Shown one piece after another: positions 5,251 to 30,942 of a stretch of DNA of 36,802 nucleotides. Position 1 is the first letter of the stretch, and each line of letters starts with the position of its first letter. The notes below the pieces were generated by a model that had not been told where the DNA came from, did no database searches, and saw nothing but the letters and a program-made list of their open reading frames with translations. Origin of the DNA: Spirochaetia bacterium (GTDB lineage Bacteria; Spirochaetota; Spirochaetia; CADAEX01); contig JAFXTY010000050.1 of NCBI GenBank assembly GCA_017535435.1, forward strand, positions 69,211-106,012. Reading direction: 5' to 3'. The position numbers and the translations under genes were made by a program.

Positions 5251-5303
5251 ATTGTCTCCATAATAAACTTATCAAAAAAATGGCAGAAAAACAATAATGA
5301 TTA

Positions 5304-5312
5304 TGTTATAAT
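5304..5312 (+). promoter_or_regulatory. Extended -10 promoter for the MmcQ/YjbR gene
   Basis: A perfect TATAAT at 5307-5312 is preceded by TG and one base, which is the extended -10 form. No good -35 box is visible at the usual distance. The predicted start near 5319 leaves a leader of about 13 nt with no clear Shine-Dalgarno sequence before the ATG at 5332. Confidence 0.55.
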
Positions 5313-5331
5313 GAATGAATAGTATTGAGCT

Positions 5332-5997
5332 ATGTTTGAAGAAAAACTGTATCACAAGAAAATGAATCCTCAGAAACTTAAAGATTATGGCTTTACAAAA
5401 AATGGTGCGGCGTACGAGTACAGAACATCGATTTTAGAAGGTAGTTTTGCCCTGTTGATTACCATTTCACAGGATGGGGCGATAGGCACCAGGCTCGTGG
5501 AGCAGCCGTCTGGAGAGGAATATGTCCTGTACAAGACAGATGCTGCGGGCTCTTTTGTAGGCAAGGTAAGATGTGCCATCAGTGATGTGATAGAAGATAT
5601 TGCCCGGAAATGCTTTGATATCGCTGTTTTCAAGAATCCTCAGACCGAGGCGGTCATAGAATATATACGCAAGAAATATGGTGATGAGCTGGAATTTCTA
5701 TGGGATAAGCTTCCCGATGCAGCTATATGGCGGCGAAAAGAGACTAATAAATGGTATGGCATTATTATGACGATATCGGCCAGGCGTCTGGGGCTTGATT
5801 ATGACACCAAGGTTGAGGTCATGGATTTGCATATCAATCCTGAAAAAATGGATGACCTGCTTAAAAATCCAAACTATCTTCCCGGTTACCATATGAACAA
5901 AAAGCATTGGTTCACTGTAATCCTTGATGGCTCAGTGAACAACGATGAGCTTTTCAGCCGTATCGATGAAAGCTACGTATTGGCAAAAAAGAAATAG
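5332..5997 (+). CDS. MmcQ/YjbR family DNA-binding-like protein
   Basis: A 221-aa protein. The C-terminal half (about 105-215) matches the MmcQ/YjbR (CyaY-like) fold: KKYGDELEFLWDKLP, RRKETNKWYGIIM, a DLHINPEKMDDLL segment and GYHMNKKHWFTVIL. The N-terminal 100 residues are an extension often seen in longer members. YjbR-type proteins are annotated as DNA-binding from structure, but no firm role is known. The ATG at 5332 follows an extended -10 promoter but has no clear ribosome site; a later Met at residue 11 is an alternative. It has no operon partner: the upstream gene is divergent, and the AT-rich McrBC genes downstream have a different composition. Confidence 0.85.
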   Translation: MFEEKLYHKKMNPQKLKDYGFTKNGAAYEYRTSILEGSFALLITISQDGAIGTRLVEQPSGEEYVLYKTDAAGSFVGKVRCAISDVIEDIARKCFDIAVFKNPQTEAVIEYIRKKYGDELEFLWDKLPDAAIWRRKETNKWYGIIMTISARRLGLDYDTKVEVMDLHINPEKMDDLLKNPNYLPGYHMNKKHWFTVILDGSVNNDELFSRIDESYVLAKKK

Positions 5998-6033
5998 AAA
6001 AAATTTTACTGTAGCGTTATTTGAGACAGGTGT

Positions 6034-6042
6034 GGTAATATA
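6034..6042 (+). promoter_or_regulatory. Possible extended -10 promoter for mcrBC
   Basis: TG plus one base followed by TAATAT (6037-6042) fits an extended -10 box. It lies just before the AGGAGAG ribosome site at about 6053-6059 that serves the mcrB ATG at 6065. No -35 box is evident. The call is weak. Confidence 0.3.
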
Positions 6043-6064
6043 AGAAAGGTTAGGAGAGAAAAAA

Positions 6065-8446
6065 ATGAGTGATTTTACTTGGATTCCAATTTATGAGGAA
6101 TTGGCTAAAAAGTTACTTGAATATAAAGATAGACGAAAAGAACTGATAGAGTTCATATTCTCAGATGCTGGGTTGAAAGAATTTTCAGGATACCTTCATT
6201 TAGAAAATAAAACTCAGATTATTGATGATATTGATCCCTTCTCTTTTATGGGGATGTTCAATCGAGGCAGCCTAGCTATCGGCAAAAGAAAAGCAATTTT
6301 AGGGAAAATAAAAGAAAAATTAAATCTTGATGCTGACATTCCATCAGATTTTGATGGTATCCCTGTTTTGAGTTATAGCAGAATGTTTTTCTATGATTGG
6401 AATGACTTTCTTGAAAGTTGCAACATTCTTTGGGATTCGTATGAAAAAATGATGAATGGTTCTTTAGAATCATGGTTTAACTATTATAAGTTTAAAACAA
6501 GAAAGGCAGAATGTACAATGCCATTGTTTTGGTGTAAACCAGAGGATTATATTGCATTGGATAGCCGAAATACTGAATATTTAAAGCAAAAGGGTATAGA
6601 TGTGGATATCAACGATGCCGATTCATATCTTAACTTGTTGCAAACGATAAAAGGTAAAATGGCTTCTAACGAACTGACAGAAAACTCGTTTGCAGAGATT
6701 TCTTATAATGCTTGGGATTACTCAAATCAGAAAAAAACCCAGTATTGGATATTCGCTCCTGGAGAAAAAGCTGATAGATGGAATGAATTTTATAAAACAG
6801 GAGTTATGGCTCTTGGTTGGGATGAAGTTCAGGATCTTAAAAAGTATGCAACGAAAGAAGATGTTAGGTCTGTAATAAAAAATATTTATAATAGAGAGAC
6901 ATCTGCAACAAATGATGCCCTTGCTAATTGGCAGTTTGCAAATGAAATAAAAACAGGTGATATAGTTTTTGCCAAAGAAGGGCTGTATAAAATAATTGGC
7001 CGGGGAGTTGTTGCTGGAGAATATGAATATAAACCAGAAAAAGATGAATATCGTCATATTAGAAAAGTACATTGGAGCAATAAAGGCGAATGGGAGGCCC
7101 CTTTTAAATTACCCCAAAAAACATTGACAAATATCACCAATTTAAAAGAAAAGGTTAAGCAACTTGAAAGCTTATTTGATCCTGAGGATGCTAAAATAAA
7201 CGAAGGGAAAATAACATATAATAAATATGGTGAATATGTAAATCTACTTAAAAATGCCAAAAATATTATCCTACAAGGTGCCCCAGGAACAGGAAAGACT
7301 TATTCAACAGCAGAAATTGCACTTTCTGTTTTAGGCTATGATACCACACAATATCAAAGTCACGAAGAGTTGATGAAAGTTTTCAATGATTTGCGTTTAA
7401 AAATTGATAGTAGTTCAGGAAATGTTTTAAGCGGGCAAATTGGATTTGTTACATTTCACCAGTCGATGGATTATGAGGATTTTGTTGAAGGAATCAAGCC
7501 TAAAACAGATGGGATGGGAAATGTTATTTATAATGTAGAAGATGGAATCTTTAAGACGATTGCAAATAAGGCAAAATATAAAAAATCGAGTAACTTTGAA
7601 AATGCATATACAAATTTTATTACAGATATTAGCGACTATGAAGATGAAAAGCCTTTTAAATTAAAAACTCGATCTAATAAAGAGTTTGCGGTTACCGTAA
7701 ATGGCAACAACAACTTGTCTCTTTATACCGGCAAGTCGTTTCGTAAAAATGGGGTTTTGACTAAAACAAATATTATTAAACAGATTCAAGGTGAAGAAAA
7801 ATTTAAAGGTTGGGAGGGATATTTCTTCGGAGTAATTGATTATCTGGCTGCAAAATATGGTTATAAAGAACAAACAGAAAAACAAAAAAACTATGTTCTT
7901 ATCATCGATGAAATCAACAGGGGAAATGTATCAAAAATATTTGGTGAACTTATCACACTGTTGGAGGCGGATAAACGCTCTGGTGGTGAACACTCTTTGC
8001 ACGTGATTCTCCCTTACTCAACAGATGAATTTGAAGTTCCGTCAAATCTATATATCATTGGCACGATGAATACAACTGATCGTAGCGTGGGAAATATAGA
8101 TTATGCTGTGCGCCGTCGTTTTTCTTTTATTACTCTGCCATCTAGTCGTGAAGTTGTCGCAGAAAAATGTGGTGAAGATAGCAAGAGTGTCCTGTTGTTT
8201 GACGCAGTAAAGAACTTTCTTGAAAAGAACAAAATCGAAATGGATATTGATGACCTTATGGTCGGGCACAGCTATTTCTTTGCCGAAACAGAAAATGAGC
8301 TTAAGCTAAAATGGAAATACAATATTCTTCCTTTACTTCGAGAGTATTTCAAGGATGGTATTATTCGAAAAAATGTCGCAAAAGATTGTGTGATTGACAC
8401 TTTCATAAATGACAATAAGAAAGAACAGAAATCAGATAATGAATAG
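6065..8446 (+). CDS. mcrB: McrB-type AAA+ GTPase with EVE-like modified-base sensor domain
   Basis: A 793-aa predicted motor and sensor subunit of a modification-dependent restriction system. Residues 1-220 are a helical region I do not recognise. Residues about 225-350 look like an EVE/YTH-type reader: QYWIFAPGEK, GVMALGWDEV, a DLKKY segment, then GDIVFAKEG and IIGRGVV. The AAA+ module follows, with Walker A GAPGTGKT at about 405, FHQSMDYEDFVEG near 475, Walker B IIDEINRG near 610 and the McrB signature GTMNTTDRS near 664. EVE domains in other McrB proteins are proposed to bind modified cytosines. GTP rather than ATP use is family knowledge. Strong AGGAGAG upstream. The gene is clearly more AT-rich than its neighbours, suggesting transfer. 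It overlaps mcrC by 8 bp. Confidence 0.92.
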   Translation: MSDFTWIPIYEELAKKLLEYKDRRKELIEFIFSDAGLKEFSGYLHLENKTQIIDDIDPFSFMGMFNRGSLAIGKRKAILGKIKEKLNLDADIPSDFDGIPVLSYSRMFFYDWNDFLESCNILWDSYEKMMNGSLESWFNYYKFKTRKAECTMPLFWCKPEDYIALDSRNTEYLKQKGIDVDINDADSYLNLLQTIKGKMASNELTENSFAEISYNAWDYSNQKKTQYWIFAPGEKADRWNEFYKTGVMALGWDEVQDLKKYATKEDVRSVIKNIYNRETSATNDALANWQFANEIKTGDIVFAKEGLYKIIGRGVVAGEYEYKPEKDEYRHIRKVHWSNKGEWEAPFKLPQKTLTNITNLKEKVKQLESLFDPEDAKINEGKITYNKYGEYVNLLKNAKNIILQGAPGTGKTYSTAEIALSVLGYDTTQYQSHEELMKVFNDLRLKIDSSSGNVLSGQIGFVTFHQSMDYEDFVEGIKPKTDGMGNVIYNVEDGIFKTIANKAKYKKSSNFENAYTNFITDISDYEDEKPFKLKTRSNKEFAVTVNGNNNLSLYTGKSFRKNGVLTKTNIIKQIQGEEKFKGWEGYFFGVIDYLAAKYGYKEQTEKQKNYVLIIDEINRGNVSKIFGELITLLEADKRSGGEHSLHVILPYSTDEFEVPSNLYIIGTMNTTDRSVGNIDYAVRRRFSFITLPSSREVVAEKCGEDSKSVLLFDAVKNFLEKNKIEMDIDDLMVGHSYFFAETENELKLKWKYNILPLLREYFKDGIIRKNVAKDCVIDTFINDNKKEQKSDNE

Positions 8447-9788
8447 AATTATTAATTTTCAGGAACATCAGTCCCGAAAAATTACTGATATCACTGAATT
8501 GAACGGAATAGATAGTATTGCTACTTCTTTAAAGCTGAAAGGCTTACCCGATGATTTTATGGGTGCACCTAAATATTTAGGGCTTTTTGCTGATTCTGAA
8601 ACTATTGTATCATCATTTTACATCGGTGCAACTTGGCTTAAGGAGAATGAACTTGCAACTGTGGTAAACCCGAAAATAAATGTTGATTATTTAAAGATGT
8701 TTTCCGATGCTCTTGAAGTCGATTCAGAAAAAGAAAACAATTATTTTTCAAAGTGCTACGGAATTGAATTTGACAAAAGTGAAATTGAATTACACAGTGA
8801 ATTCAACATCATCACGCCGCTCATCTTGATTCATTATATTTCGGTTCTAAAAAATCTTACAAAGCACGAACTCAAAAAAGGCTATATCTATTACGAAGAA
8901 AATCTAAAGTCAAAAGTAAAGGGTCATTTGCTTTTTCAAAAACACCTGCGTAAAAATATAATCAGAAAATGTGAGAACAGGGCATATTGTGGCTTCCAAG
9001 AATACACGGAAGACATCGCGGAAAACCGACTATTGAAAAAAGCTTTGATTTTTGCAAGCAGGGCAATTGACAATTATAAAAGTCTTACGAGGCAAAAAAC
9101 TTTTGATGAATTAAAAATTGCAATCAATCAGCTTTTTTCCGCTTTTACAAATGTTTCAAACGAGATTGAAACCCATGAAATAAAATCATTACGCTTCAAC
9201 AAGCTATTTGCTAATTACCCCGAGGCGATAAAACTTGCCAAAATGATTTTGAGAAAATACGACTATTCGCTTCAAAAAACGGAACAGGCGGAAACCAAAA
9301 CGCTTCCATTTTGGATTGATATGCCCCGTCTTTATGAAATGTATGTTTATAAATGGCTTAAAGAGAATACTGATGATGAAGTTTTATTTCAGGTGGAAGG
9401 TTATCGAGGGACAGCTGCAGATTTTGTTTTGGCCAAGCAAGGAATCGTTTTGGATGCAAAATATAAGCCCCATTACAAGGATTCAAAAAGAGGAATTATT
9501 GATGATATTCGCGAGATGAGTGGTTATGCCCGCGATGAAAAAATTTTGCGTCATTTTGAAAACCCCAAAACAGCAATCGTACCGTGTGTGATTTTATATC
9601 CTGAATCTTTTGAAGAAATGAAAGAGTTTGGGGCTGATGAAGGATTTGAAACAAAAACAATTAACCAAATCCACTCTGGTGATGAAAGTTTTGATAAGTC
9701 AAAAGGTTTATTAGCACAGTGCCAAAGCATAAAAGCCTATAGAGATTTTTATAAACGAAAAGTTAATGTTCCAATAATCAAAGAATAA
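8439..9788 (+). CDS. mcrC: McrC-type PD-(D/E)XK nuclease subunit
   Basis: A 449-aa partner of McrB. The N-terminal part (about 1-270) resembles the McrC region that docks on the McrB ring. The C-terminal part is a PD-(D/E)XK nuclease: WIDMPRLYEMYVYKWL at about 288-303, then GTAADFVLAKQG and VLDAKYKPHY at about 325-345, giving the Asp...Asp-x-Lys site. The ATG at 8439 is chosen over one at 8409 because it gives the short 8-bp overlap typical of coupled subunits. The gene shares the AT-rich composition of mcrB. Both subunits look intact, so the system is probably functional, cutting foreign DNA after McrB recognises modified bases. Confidence 0.92.
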   Translation: MNRIINFQEHQSRKITDITELNGIDSIATSLKLKGLPDDFMGAPKYLGLFADSETIVSSFYIGATWLKENELATVVNPKINVDYLKMFSDALEVDSEKENNYFSKCYGIEFDKSEIELHSEFNIITPLILIHYISVLKNLTKHELKKGYIYYEENLKSKVKGHLLFQKHLRKNIIRKCENRAYCGFQEYTEDIAENRLLKKALIFASRAIDNYKSLTRQKTFDELKIAINQLFSAFTNVSNEIETHEIKSLRFNKLFANYPEAIKLAKMILRKYDYSLQKTEQAETKTLPFWIDMPRLYEMYVYKWLKENTDDEVLFQVEGYRGTAADFVLAKQGIVLDAKYKPHYKDSKRGIIDDIREMSGYARDEKILRHFENPKTAIVPCVILYPESFEEMKEFGADEGFETKTINQIHSGDESFDKSKGLLAQCQSIKAYRDFYKRKVNVPIIKE

Positions 9789-9798
9789 TTTTTTGCAA

Positions 9799-9831
9799 CT
9801 ATTCCAGAATTGACAGGATTATCTGGAATAG
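9799..9831. repeat. 10-bp perfect inverted repeat downstream of mcrC
   Basis: CTATTCCAGA (9799-9808) and TCTGGAATAG (9822-9831) are perfect reverse complements separated by 13 nt, 10 bp after the mcrC stop. No T-run follows on either strand, so it is not a standard intrinsic terminator. It could be a transcript-end stabiliser, a protein-binding site or an insertion scar. Confidence 0.6.
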
Positions 9832-9950
9832 AAAATAAGCAAAATGTATCAAAATCTTTTCTAGAATCTCATCTACACGAGAGGAGTGGGTTAACCTGCC
9901 TCTACTAGGGGTGGAGGGGGCTGCCTGAACCAGCACCCCAAAATAGGAAG

Positions 9951-10030
9951 GCACAGCAAAAGGCACTCCTGGCGGTATCTCCGGCCCGTAGGGAGCGGAA
10001 CCACCGAGCAGGGGTGTCTTATTGCTGTGC
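9951..10030. repeat. 80-nt structured repeat, copy 1
   Basis: The sequence folds into one long hairpin. P1 is 9951-9959 with 10022-10030 (9 bp). Two A-T pairs beside a bulged A at 10021 follow. P2 is 9962-9971 with 10009-10018 (10 bp, two G-U pairs). An apical stem pairs 9980-9983 with 9996-9999. Copy 2 at 28932-29011 has the same length and the same core, with six paired positions changed on both sides. It could be transcribed after mcrC (plus) or as the 3' end of the ligase transcript (minus, 4 nt after its stop). An outer 13-bp inverted repeat (9924-9936 with 10040-10052) extends it into the ligase coding end. Confidence 0.8.
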
Positions 10031-10033
10031 TTG

Positions 10034-11656
10034 TTACTTGTGCTGGTTCAGGTAGTTCACTAACTGGCGCGGAGTATGCAGGTTGAATACATCCTCGAAG
10101 GAGATACCAGTTATATTGCACTCCGCAATTGCCTCGGCCACCGCGATGGAGTCGGCACCCAACTGTACAAAGTCATCATCCATACCGTAAGGCTCTATAT
10201 TCAGCACACGGCCGAAGCTGCGGCACAGTGCTTTTTCCAGAGCGGTGGCCGGTGCGGCGTAAGGGGCCCGGTACTGGGCAAAATCTGGCTCCGGCAGGGC
10301 TGTGAAGTCCAGCTTTCCGCTGGCTGCCAGCGGTACCTTTTCCAGGTGGATGAAGAATGCAGGTATCATATATTCAGGCAGCTTGGTCTCCAGTTCCTGC
10401 CGGAGCTGGTTGGCGTCGAAGCCGGCCGGGCCGGTGTAGTAGGCGCATATGAATGTTGTATGCTCCTTCTCGAAGCCCTTTACGGCGCACCAGGCTGAGT
10501 TATCTGTCTTTTTGAGCACTGCCAGGATTTCTGACGGCTCTACTCTGTTGCCGTTGATCTTTATCATGAAATCCATCCGGCCAAGGTGCATTATGTTGCC
10601 GTCCGGCAGCTTTTTACCCAGGTCGCCGGTGTGGAAAAGACCGTCCCGGAACTTCTCCCTATTCATCTCGGGCAGGTTGATATAGCCCTTGACGCATGGA
10701 TTTTTTATGCAGATCTCCCCCTCTTCGCCGTCCGGCACTTCCTTGCCATTTTCATCCAGGATATAGAGCATGTCAGGAAGTGTGGGCAGTCCGATTGGGG
10801 CAGCTCCCCGTCTTCCGTCGATCGGGAAAATTGTCACCAGGTATCCCATCTCTCCCATTGTGAAGAGGTTGTAGATCGGGACAGGAAGGGCATCCACATC
10901 AGTAGCAACTTCGCCACCTATGTAGATCTGCTTGAGATATGAGTTGACCTTCCGGTATGCCTTCAGCAGGGACGGGGTCATGAAGATGCCTTCTATCTTG
11001 TTATCCTCTAAATAATTATAGAGCAGATGAGGGGTTTTTACAGTGTTGTAGTCCAGCACAAATATAGTGCCGCCATAATATGTGATGATGGTGGAAATCT
11101 CGAAAGCCACGAAGTTGAGAGGGAATATGACGCCGAAGTTGGGGCCGTGGGAAAGGAGGTATTCTCCTTTGTAGTTGAAGGCCTCAAGGTTTCTCTCTAG
11201 GAAGCTTCTCAGATGAACAGCCCCTTTGGGTTTCCCGGTGGTGCCTGATGTATAGATGGCGCACAGGGGATCATCCTGCTCTGTCTCGGCCCAGCCGTCA
11301 AAGCTCTTCTGCCGGATAACCTCGTCCCAGTTCTGCTGGTTCAGCGTGAGCTTGCAGCTGCAGTCATTCTCGATGAACTGCGCCCGGGCTGCCGGAGCAC
11401 TGGCTTCAAGAACCACGAATGCGGCTCCAGCCTTGATAATTCCCAAAGCTGCCACATAGACCATGGCGCCCCTGGGCAGGTTTATGAACACAAAATCGCC
11501 TCTTCCCACACCCTTGGAGCGCAGATATGTGACAACCTGGCCGGTAAGCCTGTCCACATCGGCATAGGTAAGCTGGTTTCCCAGCTGATCCACGAGGCAT
11601 AGCTTGTCGGGAATTGTCATCATCTGTTTTGCTATCTGCTGGCAGAATGGGGTCAT
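10034..11656 (-). CDS. Stand-alone adenylation domain fused to a peptidyl carrier domain (NRPS-like A-PCP)
   Basis: A 540-aa protein. An acyl/aminoacyl adenylate-forming domain covers about 1-455, with core A3 YTSGTTGKPKG (135-145), A7 FHTGDLG, A8 RMDFMIKINGNRVEP and A10 PLAASGKLD. A carrier domain at about 465-540 carries LGADSI, in which Ser503 would hold phosphopantetheine. The A5 position reads NLFTMGEMG instead of the common N-x-YGPTE, so substrate choice is hard to predict. It would activate an acid as the AMP ester and load it on its own carrier. No condensation, thioesterase, Dlt or transferase gene is nearby, so the acceptor is unknown. GAAGGAG precedes the ATG. Confidence 0.88.
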   Translation of the reverse strand: MTPFCQQIAKQMMTIPDKLCLVDQLGNQLTYADVDRLTGQVVTYLRSKGVGRGDFVFINLPRGAMVYVAALGIIKAGAAFVVLEASAPAARAQFIENDCSCKLTLNQQNWDEVIRQKSFDGWAETEQDDPLCAIYTSGTTGKPKGAVHLRSFLERNLEAFNYKGEYLLSHGPNFGVIFPLNFVAFEISTIITYYGGTIFVLDYNTVKTPHLLYNYLEDNKIEGIFMTPSLLKAYRKVNSYLKQIYIGGEVATDVDALPVPIYNLFTMGEMGYLVTIFPIDGRRGAAPIGLPTLPDMLYILDENGKEVPDGEEGEICIKNPCVKGYINLPEMNREKFRDGLFHTGDLGKKLPDGNIMHLGRMDFMIKINGNRVEPSEILAVLKKTDNSAWCAVKGFEKEHTTFICAYYTGPAGFDANQLRQELETKLPEYMIPAFFIHLEKVPLAASGKLDFTALPEPDFAQYRAPYAAPATALEKALCRSFGRVLNIEPYGMDDDFVQLGADSIAVAEAIAECNITGISFEDVFNLHTPRQLVNYLNQHK

Positions 11657-27991: not shown

Positions 27992-28021
27992 AAAAGGCAA
28001 GGTTCACCCCTTGCCTTTTTT
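27992..28021 (+). terminator. Intrinsic terminator of the lipoprotein gene
   Basis: AAAAGGCAAGG (27992-28002) pairs with CCTTGCCTTTT (28009-28019) around a 6-nt loop and is followed by more T. The left 19-bp direct repeat of the toxin-antitoxin cassette begins on the next base. Confidence 0.92.
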
Positions 28022-28040
28022 ATTGCTCTTGCCCGGGGTA
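28022..28040 (+). repeat. 19-bp direct repeat, left copy, bounding the HTH-MNT/HepT cassette
   Basis: ATTGCTCTTGCCCGGGGTA is identical to 29018-29036. The two copies flank 977 bp containing the operator, the antitoxin and toxin genes and the 80-nt repeat. This looks like an insertion boundary or target duplication; 19 bp is long for most transposases, so homologous or site-specific routes are also possible. Confidence 0.85.
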
Positions 28041-28049
28041 GTTGTAAAG

Positions 28050-28112
28050 TTTGCATATTAATGTTGACAAGATATGCAAAATTTGCATATTATTATATTG
28101 GTGATATGCAAA
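28050..28112 (+). promoter_or_regulatory. Promoter and four-half-site operator of the toxin-antitoxin operon
   Basis: TTGACA at 28064-28069 and TATTAT at 28088-28093 (18-bp spacer) form the promoter. A perfect palindrome of ATATGCAAA (28072-28080) and TTTGCATAT (28082-28090) around one A covers the spacer and -10. Additional half-sites are TTTGCATAT at 28050-28058 and ATATGCAAA at 28104-28112, next to the ATG. This is what an autoregulating HTH antitoxin would bind. Confidence 0.78.
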
Positions 28113-28113
28113 A

Positions 28114-28584
28114 ATGAATTTGAAGGAAGAAAGAATCCATAAAGAGCTGACTCAAAAAAAGGCGGCGAAACTGCTGGGCGTATCGCTACGCTCTTATGTC
28201 TCATACGAGAATAATCCAGCCTTGGAAGACACTCTGAAATATAAATTTTTTGTGCACGAGCTGGCCAAGTACAATGTGATTGATGAAACCCATGGCATCC
28301 TAAGCCAAAAGAAGATAATAGAGGCCTGCGAAAAGGTTTTCAAAGATTATGATATCAATTATTGCTATCTTTTCGGTTCATATTCGAAGTGGACAGCTAA
28401 AGAGACAAGCGATGTCGATCTTCTTATCTCAACAAAGACCAAAGGAATCAAGTTTTTTGAGATGGCCGAGCGTCTAAGAGAATTATTGAATAAAAAGGTT
28501 GATTTGCTGGATACTCGGCAGCTGCTTAACAACCCGTCTCTGCTGGATGAAGTTCTGAAGTTTGGGATAAGAATTTATGGATAA
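28114..28584 (+). CDS. mntA: HTH-MNT antitoxin (MntA-type nucleotidyltransferase fused to an XRE-like HTH)
   Basis: A 156-aa protein. Residues about 1-45 form a helix-turn-helix (ELTQKKAAKLLGVSLRSYVSYE). Residues about 65-156 are a minimal nucleotidyltransferase with GSYSKWTAKETSDVDLLIS, the complete GS...D-x-D site. MntA proteins silence the HepT partner, in known cases by adding AMP to a Tyr in the HepT R-x4-H-x-Y motif. The fused HTH implies that the antitoxin also represses its own promoter. It overlaps hepT by 8 bp. The Shine-Dalgarno sequence is poor (GGTGAT). The cassette is bounded by 19-bp direct repeats, which points to recent gain. Confidence 0.9.
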   Translation: MNLKEERIHKELTQKKAAKLLGVSLRSYVSYENNPALEDTLKYKFFVHELAKYNVIDETHGILSQKKIIEACEKVFKDYDINYCYLFGSYSKWTAKETSDVDLLISTKTKGIKFFEMAERLRELLNKKVDLLDTRQLLNNPSLLDEVLKFGIRIYG

Positions 28585-28900
28585 TATCAAGGATGATTCA
28601 TACTTCATTACCAAGATAAAAGAAGATCTCGCTTTTATTTTTAAACATATGGAGAATGTGGATTCTGAGGGATTGCGGCAGAATGAGGTTCTGCAGGATT
28701 CCATGCTGTTCCGGCTGATTCAGATATCAGAAAATGCAAAAAGGATAAGCTATGAGTTCAAAGGCAAACGGCAAGATATTCCCTGGACTGCCTTGTATGG
28801 TCTACGGAACAGAATTGTCCACGACTATGGGAATGTTGACCTGGAGATAGTGTATACAACGCTGAAAGAGGATTTGCCAGAGTTGCTGGAGAGGATGTAA
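28577..28900 (+). CDS. hepT: HepT-type HEPN ribonuclease toxin (DUF86)
   Basis: A 107-aa all-helical HEPN protein. The R-x4-H-x-Y motif reads RNRIVHDYG at about residues 79-87, with Arg and His for RNase activity and Tyr as the probable AMPylation target of MntA. Length is typical of DUF86. The start overlaps mntA by 8 bp, so translation is coupled. It would cut RNA (tRNA in a studied example) when freed from the antitoxin. The 80-nt structured repeat begins 31 bp after its stop. Confidence 0.92.
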   Translation: MDNIKDDSYFITKIKEDLAFIFKHMENVDSEGLRQNEVLQDSMLFRLIQISENAKRISYEFKGKRQDIPWTALYGLRNRIVHDYGNVDLEIVYTTLKEDLPELLERM

Positions 28901-28931
28901 ATAATTAGTGAATTTCCAACCCAAATTGTAA

Positions 28932-29011
28932 CCCAGGCAAAAGGCACCCCTGGCGGTATCCCTGGCCCGCAGAGAGCAGGACCACCGAGCAGGGGTGTCT
29001 TATTGCCTGGG
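28932..29011. repeat. 80-nt structured repeat, copy 2
   Basis: It has the same fold as copy 1. P1 is 28932-28940 with 29003-29011, P2 is 28943-28952 with 28990-28999, there is a bulged A at 29002, and the apical stem pairs 28961-28964 with 28977-28980. The conserved loop core GCGGTATC, GCCCGYAGRGAG and ACCACCGAG is shared. P1 differs from copy 1 at four pairs and the apical stem at two pairs, each still complementary. It lies between hepT and the right 19-bp direct repeat, in the same orientation relative to the defence genes as copy 1. Confidence 0.8.
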
Positions 29012-29017
29012 CTTGTC

Positions 29018-29036
29018 ATTGCTCTTGCCCGGGGTA
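29018..29036 (+). repeat. 19-bp direct repeat, right copy
   Basis: Identical to 28022-28040. It contains TTGCCC (29025-29030), which has the correct spacing to act as the htpG -35 box, so insertion of the cassette with this duplication leaves the htpG promoter whole. Confidence 0.85.
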
Positions 29037-29073: not shown

Positions 29074-30942
29074 ATGGCTACACATCAGTTTCAGACAGAA
29101 GTGTCACAGCTTCTTCATTTAATTATTCATTCCCTGTACTCAAACAAGGAGATCTTCCTGAGGGAGCTTATCTCCAACGCATCCGATGCACTGGACAAAC
29201 TTAAGTATCTTTCCCTCACCGATGACAAGTATAAAAACCTGGACCAGGAGTTCCGCATCGACGTTAAGTTTGATGAGGATGCCCATACACTGACCATTGC
29301 CGACACCGGTATCGGTATGAACAACAAGGATCTGGCTCAGAACCTGGGAACCATCGCAAAATCTGGTACAAAGAACTTTTTGGCCGGCCTCTCCGGCGAT
29401 GCAAAGAAGGATTCAAACCTTATCGGCCAGTTCGGTGTAGGTTTCTATTCTGCCTTCATGGTTGCAGACAAAATCGAGGTGCTCTCTAAAAAACCTGGAG
29501 AACAGAAGGCTTGGATCTGGTCCAGCGACGGCAAGGGGGAGTTCGATATTTCCGAGGGAAAGAAGGAAAAGTATGGTACTGAGGTCAAGCTTTACCTGAA
29601 CGACGAGGGGAAGGAGTATGCCAGCCGCTGGCAGATTGAGCTCCTGATCAAGAAGTATTCAGACCACATCTCATTCCCGATCTACCTGGAATATGACTCT
29701 GTCAAATTTGAGGGAGAAGGCGACAATAGAAAGGAAGTGAAGGAGCACAAGATTGACAAGATCAACTCCGGCTCTGCCCTTTGGAAACGGCCTAAATCCG
29801 AGCTTACCGACAAGGACTACAACGAGTTCTACAAGACTATATCCCATGATACAGAGGATCCTCTCTACTACATCCATACAAAGGCAGAGGGAACCCTTGA
29901 GTACACCACACTGTTCTACATTCCTCAGCATGCTCCATTCGACATGCTCCATGCCGACTACAAGCCGGGCGTGAAGTTGTATGTCTCACGGGTGTTCATC
30001 ACAGATGACGACAAGGATCTGATGCCGGATTACCTCAGGTTCCTCCGGGGTATCATCGATTCCGAGGACCTGCCGCTTAACGTTAGCCGTGAGATCCTGC
30101 AGCAGAACAAGATAATGTCCTCCATCCGGAGTGCATCTGTAAAGAAGGTGCTTTCCGAGCTGAAGGCGTTGTCCGAGAGCAACAAGGAGAAGTACACACA
30201 GTTCATCGAGCAGTATAACAAGCTGCTTAAGGAAGGACTCTATTCCGACTGGGCAAACAGGGAGACACTGACCGACCTTATCAGGTTCAAGTCCACTGCT
30301 GTTGATGGCTACACCAGCTTCAAGGAGTATACCGAGCGGATGAAGCCGGATCAGAAGGCTATATACTTCATCACCGGAGGCAAGGAGTCTGCACTCAAGA
30401 GCTCACCGCTTATCGAAGCATACAAGGCCAAAGGCTTCGAGGTCCTGATCATGGACGACAACATCGACGAGATCGTAATCCCGAGCCTGGGCAAATACAA
30501 GGACTTTGAGCTTAAGTCTGTGAACCGCAAGGGTGCCGCAGATGAGCTTAAGGATAAGGAAGATGAGAAGAAGGCCGAGGAGATCAAGCCTCTTCTTGAG
30601 AAGATCAAGGGAGTGCTGGGCGACAAGGTCAAGAGCGTAATTGCCTCAAGCCGCTTAAGCGATTCTCCCTCCTGCATTGTGGCTGACGAGAACGACCCGA
30701 CAATGCAGATGCAGGCTCTTCTTAAGTCTATAGGACAGGGTGACACTGAGTATGCACCGGTGCTTGAGATCAACCCGAAGCATCCGATTGTGCAGAAGCT
30801 TGCAACAATTGAGGATAAGGAAGTGATCGAGGATATCAGCTTTGTTCTTCTGGAGCAGGCGCGGCTTGCCGAGGGTGCACCTCTGGCAGACACTGCAGGC
30901 TTTATCAAGAGGCTCAACAGGCTTACCGAGAAAGCTCTTTAA
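29074..30942 (+). CDS. htpG: Molecular chaperone HtpG (bacterial Hsp90)
   Basis: A 622-aa ATP-dependent chaperone of full family length. The N-terminal GHKL ATPase (about 1-215) shows NKEIFLRELISNASDALDKL, DTGIGM and GQFGVGFYSAFMV. The middle domain (about 230-490) includes RGIIDSEDLPLNVSREILQQ with the ATP-contacting Arg. The C-terminal dimerisation domain lacks the eukaryotic MEEVD tail, as expected. It acts on client proteins in the cytoplasm. AGGAGC precedes the ATG. It appears to be a single-gene unit: the toxin-antitoxin cassette lies upstream and a terminator downstream lies inside the convergent Omp85-like gene. Confidence 0.97.
   Translation: MATHQFQTEVSQLLHLIIHSLYSNKEIFLRELISNASDALDKLKYLSLTDDKYKNLDQEFRIDVKFDEDAHTLTIADTGIGMNNKDLAQNLGTIAKSGTKNFLAGLSGDAKKDSNLIGQFGVGFYSAFMVADKIEVLSKKPGEQKAWIWSSDGKGEFDISEGKKEKYGTEVKLYLNDEGKEYASRWQIELLIKKYSDHISFPIYLEYDSVKFEGEGDNRKEVKEHKIDKINSGSALWKRPKSELTDKDYNEFYKTISHDTEDPLYYIHTKAEGTLEYTTLFYIPQHAPFDMLHADYKPGVKLYVSRVFITDDDKDLMPDYLRFLRGIIDSEDLPLNVSREILQQNKIMSSIRSASVKKVLSELKALSESNKEKYTQFIEQYNKLLKEGLYSDWANRETLTDLIRFKSTAVDGYTSFKEYTERMKPDQKAIYFITGGKESALKSSPLIEAYKAKGFEVLIMDDNIDEIVIPSLGKYKDFELKSVNRKGAADELKDKEDEKKAEEIKPLLEKIKGVLGDKVKSVIASSRLSDSPSCIVADENDPTMQMQALLKSIGQGDTEYAPVLEINPKHPIVQKLATIEDKEVIEDISFVLLEQARLAEGAPLADTAGFIKRLNRLTEKAL

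Follow-up and report, generated by a model that had tools for sequence, protein, structure and literature searches.

A genus-restricted hairpin repeat family bordering accessory gene islands in rumen Spirochaetia

Within a window of 36,802 nucleotides (the whole stretch of DNA that was analysed) an 80-nt hairpin occurs twice, and the question raised by this locus is what such a repeat represents; a sequence-only reading had suggested either an undescribed structured RNA or a non-autonomous hairpin element. The two copies lie exactly where that reading placed them, at 9951-10030 and 28932-29011, each 80 nt in length and with a near-identical core. When both were read position by position, the four double changes reported in the basal helix, P1, were seen again, as were the two in the apical stem (9980:9999, T-A to C-G; 9982:9997, C-G to T-A) and the P2 pair that is T-G in one copy and C-G in the other. 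The 80-nt boundary itself turned out to be arbitrary: copy 1 is surrounded by an outer inverted repeat, P0, and at another locus the inserted unit is ~127 bp long. The features are as follows (R1 is the covariance model described below).

5251..9950, no strand: AT-rich (35% GC) accessory island on the 5' side of copy 1
5332-5997: YjbR-like (YjbR-domain) protein, copy 1 island
6065-8446: McrB (McrB-like AAA protein), copy 1 island
8409-9788: McrC, copy 1 island
9896..9920, no strand: putative C/G-rich left-end motif of copy 1, proposed from the family-wide C-rich stretch on the 5' side
9921..9936, no strand: P0, left arm, copy 1 (CTGCCTGAACCAGCAC)
9951..10030, + strand: hairpin copy 1, type A tip (R1, 93.7 bits)
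9951-9957/10024-10030: copy 1, P1
9958-9961: copy 1, A-tract, opposite the bulged T-tract
9962-9971/10009-10018: copy 1, P2
G9972 / A10007-G10008: copy 1, 1x2 loop
9973-9976/10003-10006: copy 1, P3
9977-9978: copy 1, loop AT; beyond it the apical stem, with a second G/AG loop and a GTA triloop
10034..11656, - strand: AMP-binding ligase with PP-binding domain, the core gene 3' of copy 1
10040..10055, no strand: P0, right arm, copy 1, within the 3' end of the AMP-ligase gene
28022..28040, + strand: 19-bp direct repeat ATTGCTCTTGCCCGGGGTA, left copy, flanking the copy 2 cassette
28041..29017, no strand: accessory cassette of copy 2 (MntA-like, HepT-like and the hairpin)
28114-28584: MntA-like protein, copy 2 cassette
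28577-28900: HepT-like protein, copy 2 cassette
28932..29011, + strand: hairpin copy 2, type A tip (R1, 93.4 bits)
29018..29036, + strand: 19-bp direct repeat, right copy, in the htpG upstream region
29074..30942, + strand: htpG (Hsp90-like, named from its sequence), the core gene 3' of copy 2

The folding energies are -49.9 kcal/mol for copy 1 and -50.7 kcal/mol for copy 2, and none of 200 dinucleotide shuffles folded as well (z of -6.7 and -5.8, respectively). The stop codon of the AMP-binding ligase lies 3 nt from the copy 1 hairpin, and since the right arm of P0 is here coding sequence of that gene, the arm is fixed by protein coding. The left-end motif of copy 1 is weak, with five C in ten positions followed by a G-rich run. 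An ordinary, bidirectional-looking terminator (AAAAGGCAAGG...CCTTGCCTTTT) was observed in the window at 27992-28019; a related one is found upstream of htpG in the congener G004 (L186).

Family, host range and anatomy

A BLAST search of the same genome with the 80-mer returned 14 good full or near-full copies. Model R1, which describes the short forms and was built from 34 copies, matched 22 times in this genome and 20, 20, 18, 14 and 10 times in five congeners, where the counts include a few opposite-strand matches of the same copy. A second covariance model for the longer forms (R2) gave 5 matches in this genome and 13, 8, 12, 11 and 4 in the five congeners, all confined to the genus. The congener G001 had zero R1 matches, and the remaining ~190 of 198 Spirochaetia genomes had no convincing one. 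The concern that the two window copies might be the only ones was dispelled by this search, as the merged and cleaned set holds 127 scored elements in six genomes, each genome of this single genus of rumen spirochaetes carrying ~15-35 of them. The hosts, as seen in a pattern scan of GTDB contigs, are rumen Spirochaetia MAGs; these genomes are fragmented, and some copies lie at contig ends.

Rfam 15, the comparison proposed at the outset, yielded no known family, either at the gathering score or at a loose E-value. Phage, plasmid and IMG/VR collections contained no copies; eight viral pattern hits, together with the genome hits L059 and L065, failed the covariance model and were rejected. A literature survey of limited extent found no description of the hairpin family. 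Taken together, these results indicate that a genus-restricted hairpin repeat family is real and apparently undescribed, and we place high confidence in both the family and its fold.

In all of this the fold is modular. P1, at the base, varies in sequence and keeps its pairing; above it AAAA stands opposite TTATT, usually with a bulge, and is followed by P2, a 1x2 loop with an invariant AG, P3 (CGGT/ACCG or CGAT/ATCG), a conserved AT, and finally a distal module, of which there are several kinds. A second G/AG loop and a GNA triloop close types A and B, type C is a plain stem, and types D and E have two additional helices; type F, with a core of 165 nt and up to ~285 nt overall (L272, -180 kcal/mol), has a tip forked into two small hairpins. 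Member length ranges from 75 to 285 nt. P0 is present in many copies, ~15 nt outside P1 on each side, and its pairing is, family-wide, far above that of mispaired flanks (p=8e-12). At orthologous sites the stem base was kept and the distal module swapped (L111/L117, L132/L164, L144/L163, L110/L154, L103/L129), and in the nested copies L114, L140 and L156 one element lies within the apical part of another.

Several additional forms were observed. The long forms with forked tips (L268-L277 and L283, in G000, G002, G003, G004 and G006) are intergenic, and their first tip hairpin resembles CGTC-type REP palindromes. At ~2400-2470 of L132, immediately upstream of a complete copy, only the left half of a long form is present, and 2501-2583 of L128 is a mosaic with a left arm of the CCAAGC type and a right arm of the GCTGGCAG type, either a real recombinant or an assembly chimera.

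Placement at accessory islands, and filled and empty sites

The sequence-only reading was right on both 80-nt hairpins but missed the long forms, the polarity of the element and its outward-facing partner copies around accessory islands. The data show that the element is polar: its 3' side adjoins core genes with conserved synteny, and its 5' side faces AT-rich accessory genes. Gene ends lie at a median of 11 nt on the 3' side vs 81 nt on the 5' side, and gene starts at 77 nt vs 152 nt (p ~4e-4 for both). Between genomes, synteny was retained at the right flank only in 21 pairs and at the left flank only in 5 (the pairs are not independent), and a C-rich stretch occurs on the 5' side of the copies (p=4e-6). 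Among the neighbours scanned, those on the 5' side include McrBC, HepT/MntA, Phd/YefM (twice), YafQ, ORF6N and an XRE-type HTH, while those on the 3' side are mostly housekeeping (rpsF, RpiA, GlmS-like SIS, PanE, dinB, thioredoxin). Inspection of the translations by eye, without a profile, also pointed to HicAB- and PIN-like pairs; gene calling relied on a simple codon-score script instead of a standard annotator.

In the window, copy 1 forms the border between the 35%-GC McrB/McrC island (5251-9950) and the 53%-GC AMP ligase, and copy 2 that between the 39%-GC MntA/HepT region and htpG. A partner across the island was detected for neither; in G004, two long hairpins that face outward enclose McrB-like, McrC-like and HicAB-like genes at the equivalent slot. 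Among 36 pairs of neighbouring copies less than 8 kb apart the order was '-+' in 21, '++' in 10, '--' in 3 and '+-' in 2 ('-+' vs '+-', p=7e-5, an optimistic value because some orthologous islands are counted more than once). Genes within 16 outward-facing pairs are low in GC (36.5% vs 48.2%, p=7e-17) and poor in host codon usage; cargo-less pairs, with copies 72-141 bp apart, also exist. Since outward-facing units bracket accessory genes, the hairpin would mark a border, with imported DNA on its 5' side and core DNA on its 3' side. This border role is well supported, and we consider it probable. A replication-strand bias of 43/63 on 5-kb loci fell to 22/36 on 20-kb loci, which is not significant; in G002 (L216-L229) the + strand was on the G-rich strand in 13 of 14 short-type copies, a pattern absent in G000.

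Orthologous sites were found both filled and empty, as in a mobile element, the direction of gain or loss not being polarised. The htpG site is filled in G000, G002 and G003 and empty in G004, G006 and G001; G004 has a single uninterrupted stretch related to the 19-bp repeat, without the cassette. Upstream of rpiA a clean unit of ~127 bp (T-run, C-rich left end, hairpin, T-run) is present in G002 and absent from G000, a difference that either insertion or deletion would produce, and at L127 an element without an island has a T-run on both sides. A MITE or TIR transposon would leave a constant target-site duplication. A direct repeat as a general rule was rejected here: the copy 2 repeat of 19 bp has no counterpart at the other sites tested, with one paralogous pair (L150) as the exception. 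Nested copies and the closely spaced cargo-less pairs fit a mobile element; its activity may be past, since orthologous positions hold many stable copies.

The search for a cognate enzyme came up empty. Y1/RAYT proteins (PF01797) were absent from all six element-bearing genomes and present only in the element-free G001. Reverse transcriptases (RVT_1, PF00078) were also absent from the six, which does not fit a retron or other reverse-transcribed element. Nearly all genomes, G001 included, contain two tyrosine recombinases, with others sporadic; these may be of the IntI or of the Xer class. Flanks in G002 that appeared to encode a transposase C-terminus were rejected as merely stop-to-stop reading frames. 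G001 itself (L172-L176, L288) carries five Y1 (RAYT-like) genes and a reverse transcriptase, and CTCTGTCCCC/GGGGACAGAG-like repeats were seen in the flanks of the two Y1 genes read.

Covariation and competing explanations

Covariation, the check proposed along with the sequence-only reading, was strong. In the MAFFT alignment of 34 copies, 90.9% of paired cells were kept as pairs and 13 of 23 pairs had at least one double change that preserved pairing; for the same 34 copies the covariation score was 0.297 vs 0.129 in shuffles, 0 of 500 shuffles being as high, and it lay above both controls. The unpaired bases (AG, AT and the bulged A) are as fixed as the best pairs, G.T pairs on the + strand number 31 vs 9 A.C pairs, and same-type orthologues are 92-100% identical, with flanking coding DNA mostly at 82-96%. 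The conserved unpaired bases, the same-type identity and the G.T excess favour selection on the folded + strand. The fold therefore matters, as had been claimed; the proof offered for it, the double changes themselves, is not safe, as the outer arms are inverted copies and modules are swapped whole.

This caution comes in part from the empty sites. In the empty orthologues of L120, L133, L157 and htpG/L119, a right arm of P0 pre-exists in similar form and the matching left arm is absent; in the filled copies the left outer arm repeats right-flank sequence in inverted orientation. Inverted copying is a footprint of replication template switching (PMC8794818); since the left outer arms match it, the outer double changes argue only weakly for selection, and the exchange of whole distal modules between copies changes many pairs in one event. 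Part of the apparent compensation may thus be template-switch copying instead of selection. An extreme form of this explanation is that no selection acts on the fold at all, imperfect palindromes being kept paired by template switching (quasipalindrome correction) and gene conversion. It draws on a published mechanism and on the four loci just described, as well as on copy 1, whose left outer arm is inverted from coding sequence, and whole-module swaps fit copying without selection. Such correction, however, should erase bulges, whereas most copies retain the A bulge together with the G/AG and AT loops; the bases under constraint in loops are unpaired, and a single compensated pair distinguishes same-type orthologues (P3, A-T to G-C, L109 vs L146). 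We regard this explanation as very unlikely.

A structured RNA would work at the transcript level, chiefly as an intrinsic terminator in both directions or as a stabiliser of 3' ends, and would have spread by duplication. The covariation and G.U preference are consistent with RNA, and the A-tract, GC stem and T-tract are arranged as in a terminator; stop codons of convergent genes on the 3' side lie at a median of 11 nt from the hairpin, some copies stand behind tRNA genes, and at L108/L142/L168 copies with long A and T tracts occupy almost all the space that separates convergent genes, leaving 5-8 nt at either end, and look like bidirectional terminators. Yet both window copies fail a terminator scan that demands at least 5 T in 8 after a GC stem with a loop of 3-8, in line with the original remark that they have no T-run and do not fit a terminator; T-tracts of sufficient length occur in a few other copies. 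Flanking-gene orientations are about equal (17/15/15/10, divergent pairs included), the tracts are missing from the divergent copies L144/L163, ordinary T7 terminators occur frequently in the same loci and coexist beside the copies, and copy orientation tracks the core/accessory border instead of gene direction. With the failed scan, the use of all gene orientations and the ordinary terminators alongside, a simple terminator is insufficient as an explanation, and a role as structured RNA is unlikely overall. The placement and orientation of copies at core/accessory borders, and the equal use of all gene orientations, would also suit a boundary or insulator, a nucleoid or transcription barrier that belongs to the host and is kept to separate core genes from imported, AT-rich DNA. 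Mobility is the better fit to nested copies, cargo-less pairs, presence/absence between close relatives and the island-free L127 element, and a host-owned barrier seems to us highly improbable.

Known systems and a proposed mechanism

Of the two possibilities raised at the outset, the non-autonomous hairpin element is the better guess. Our preferred reading, to which we assign a probability of about 0.52, is that the hairpins are copies of a mobile element that is small, polar and non-autonomous and lies at the borders of accessory cassettes.

Several known systems share some of its traits. Integron attC sites are folded-strand hairpins with extrahelical bases and a variable tip, and their cassettes are rich in TA genes. 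The present hairpins are similar in fold, extrahelical bases and tip, but they lack AAC/GTT boxes at the stem ends, are dispersed rather than arrayed, and form inverted bordering pairs; the stem base is CCAGC/GCTGG and the R boxes RYYYAAC / GTTRRRY are absent from it. IS200/IS605-derived elements have hairpin ends, form non-autonomous remnants linked to accessory genes and need no TSD. Stem-loop elements of this origin are reported in Borrelia plasmids (PMC2775950). Our family is like IS200/IS605-derived elements in its hairpin ends, its non-autonomy and its accessory-gene link, and unlike them in having different and larger hairpins, inverted pairs and no Y1 enzyme. With dispersed intergenic stem-loop repeats (bcr1, ERIC, BIME and others; PMC2267715) it has in common many short, repeated intergenic copies of one shared fold in a narrow taxon; it differs in modular length, exchangeable tips, core/accessory polarity and outward pairs around cargo. 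REP/RAYT systems comprise GTAG and CGTC super-families (PMC3733652). Like REPs, the hairpins are dispersed palindromes folding as one strand, and, in the tips of some long forms only, carry a CGTC-type-like palindrome (GTCATNCTGAAC...GTTCAGNATGAC); unlike REPs, they are much longer, the 80-nt forms have no GTAG/CGTC tag of the kind found at an end of the 20-40 bp REP palindrome, and element-bearing genomes encode no Y1 transposase. PIT/BoxC intrastrand triplex repeats (PMC4666352) are likewise intergenic, with C-rich stretches, and linked to local genome variability, but no CCCTC...GAGGG...GAGGG triple arrangement was seen in the hairpin family.

For the preferred mobile element we infer active mobility, a single-stranded substrate and an enzyme acting on it, and the odds of the following mechanism seem to us about even. 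One unit would run from a C-rich left end to a long right-end hairpin with conserved internal loops. Single units would insert between genes, and two units in outward-facing inverted order would bracket accessory genes (toxin-antitoxin, McrBC, lipoproteins). The putative enzyme would recognise the + strand in its bulged-hairpin fold and treat this as the end of the element, with hairpins used one at a time or in pairs. The distal module would be swapped or lengthened by ectopic gene conversion or by an insertion in the tip, the base being retained; replication template switching would partly rewrite the outer arms, and at some sites the base may double as a bidirectional transcription terminator. 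A bolder and rather doubtful proposal is a new class of cassette system. Its sites would be outward-facing pairs of folded-strand hairpins whose modular tips can be exchanged; served by a putative recombinase, they would flank toxin-antitoxin and defence genes and swap them at fixed slots in the chromosome.

The analysis suggests that hairpins at the edges of imported clusters help to move genes in or out. If this is right, they would be a visible border mark for the entry of accessory and defence genes into these genomes, and their natural size-graded series could reveal which bases a folded-strand recombinase reads. The family also offers a test case for a general problem, namely what share of covariation comes from selection and what share from template switching and module exchange.
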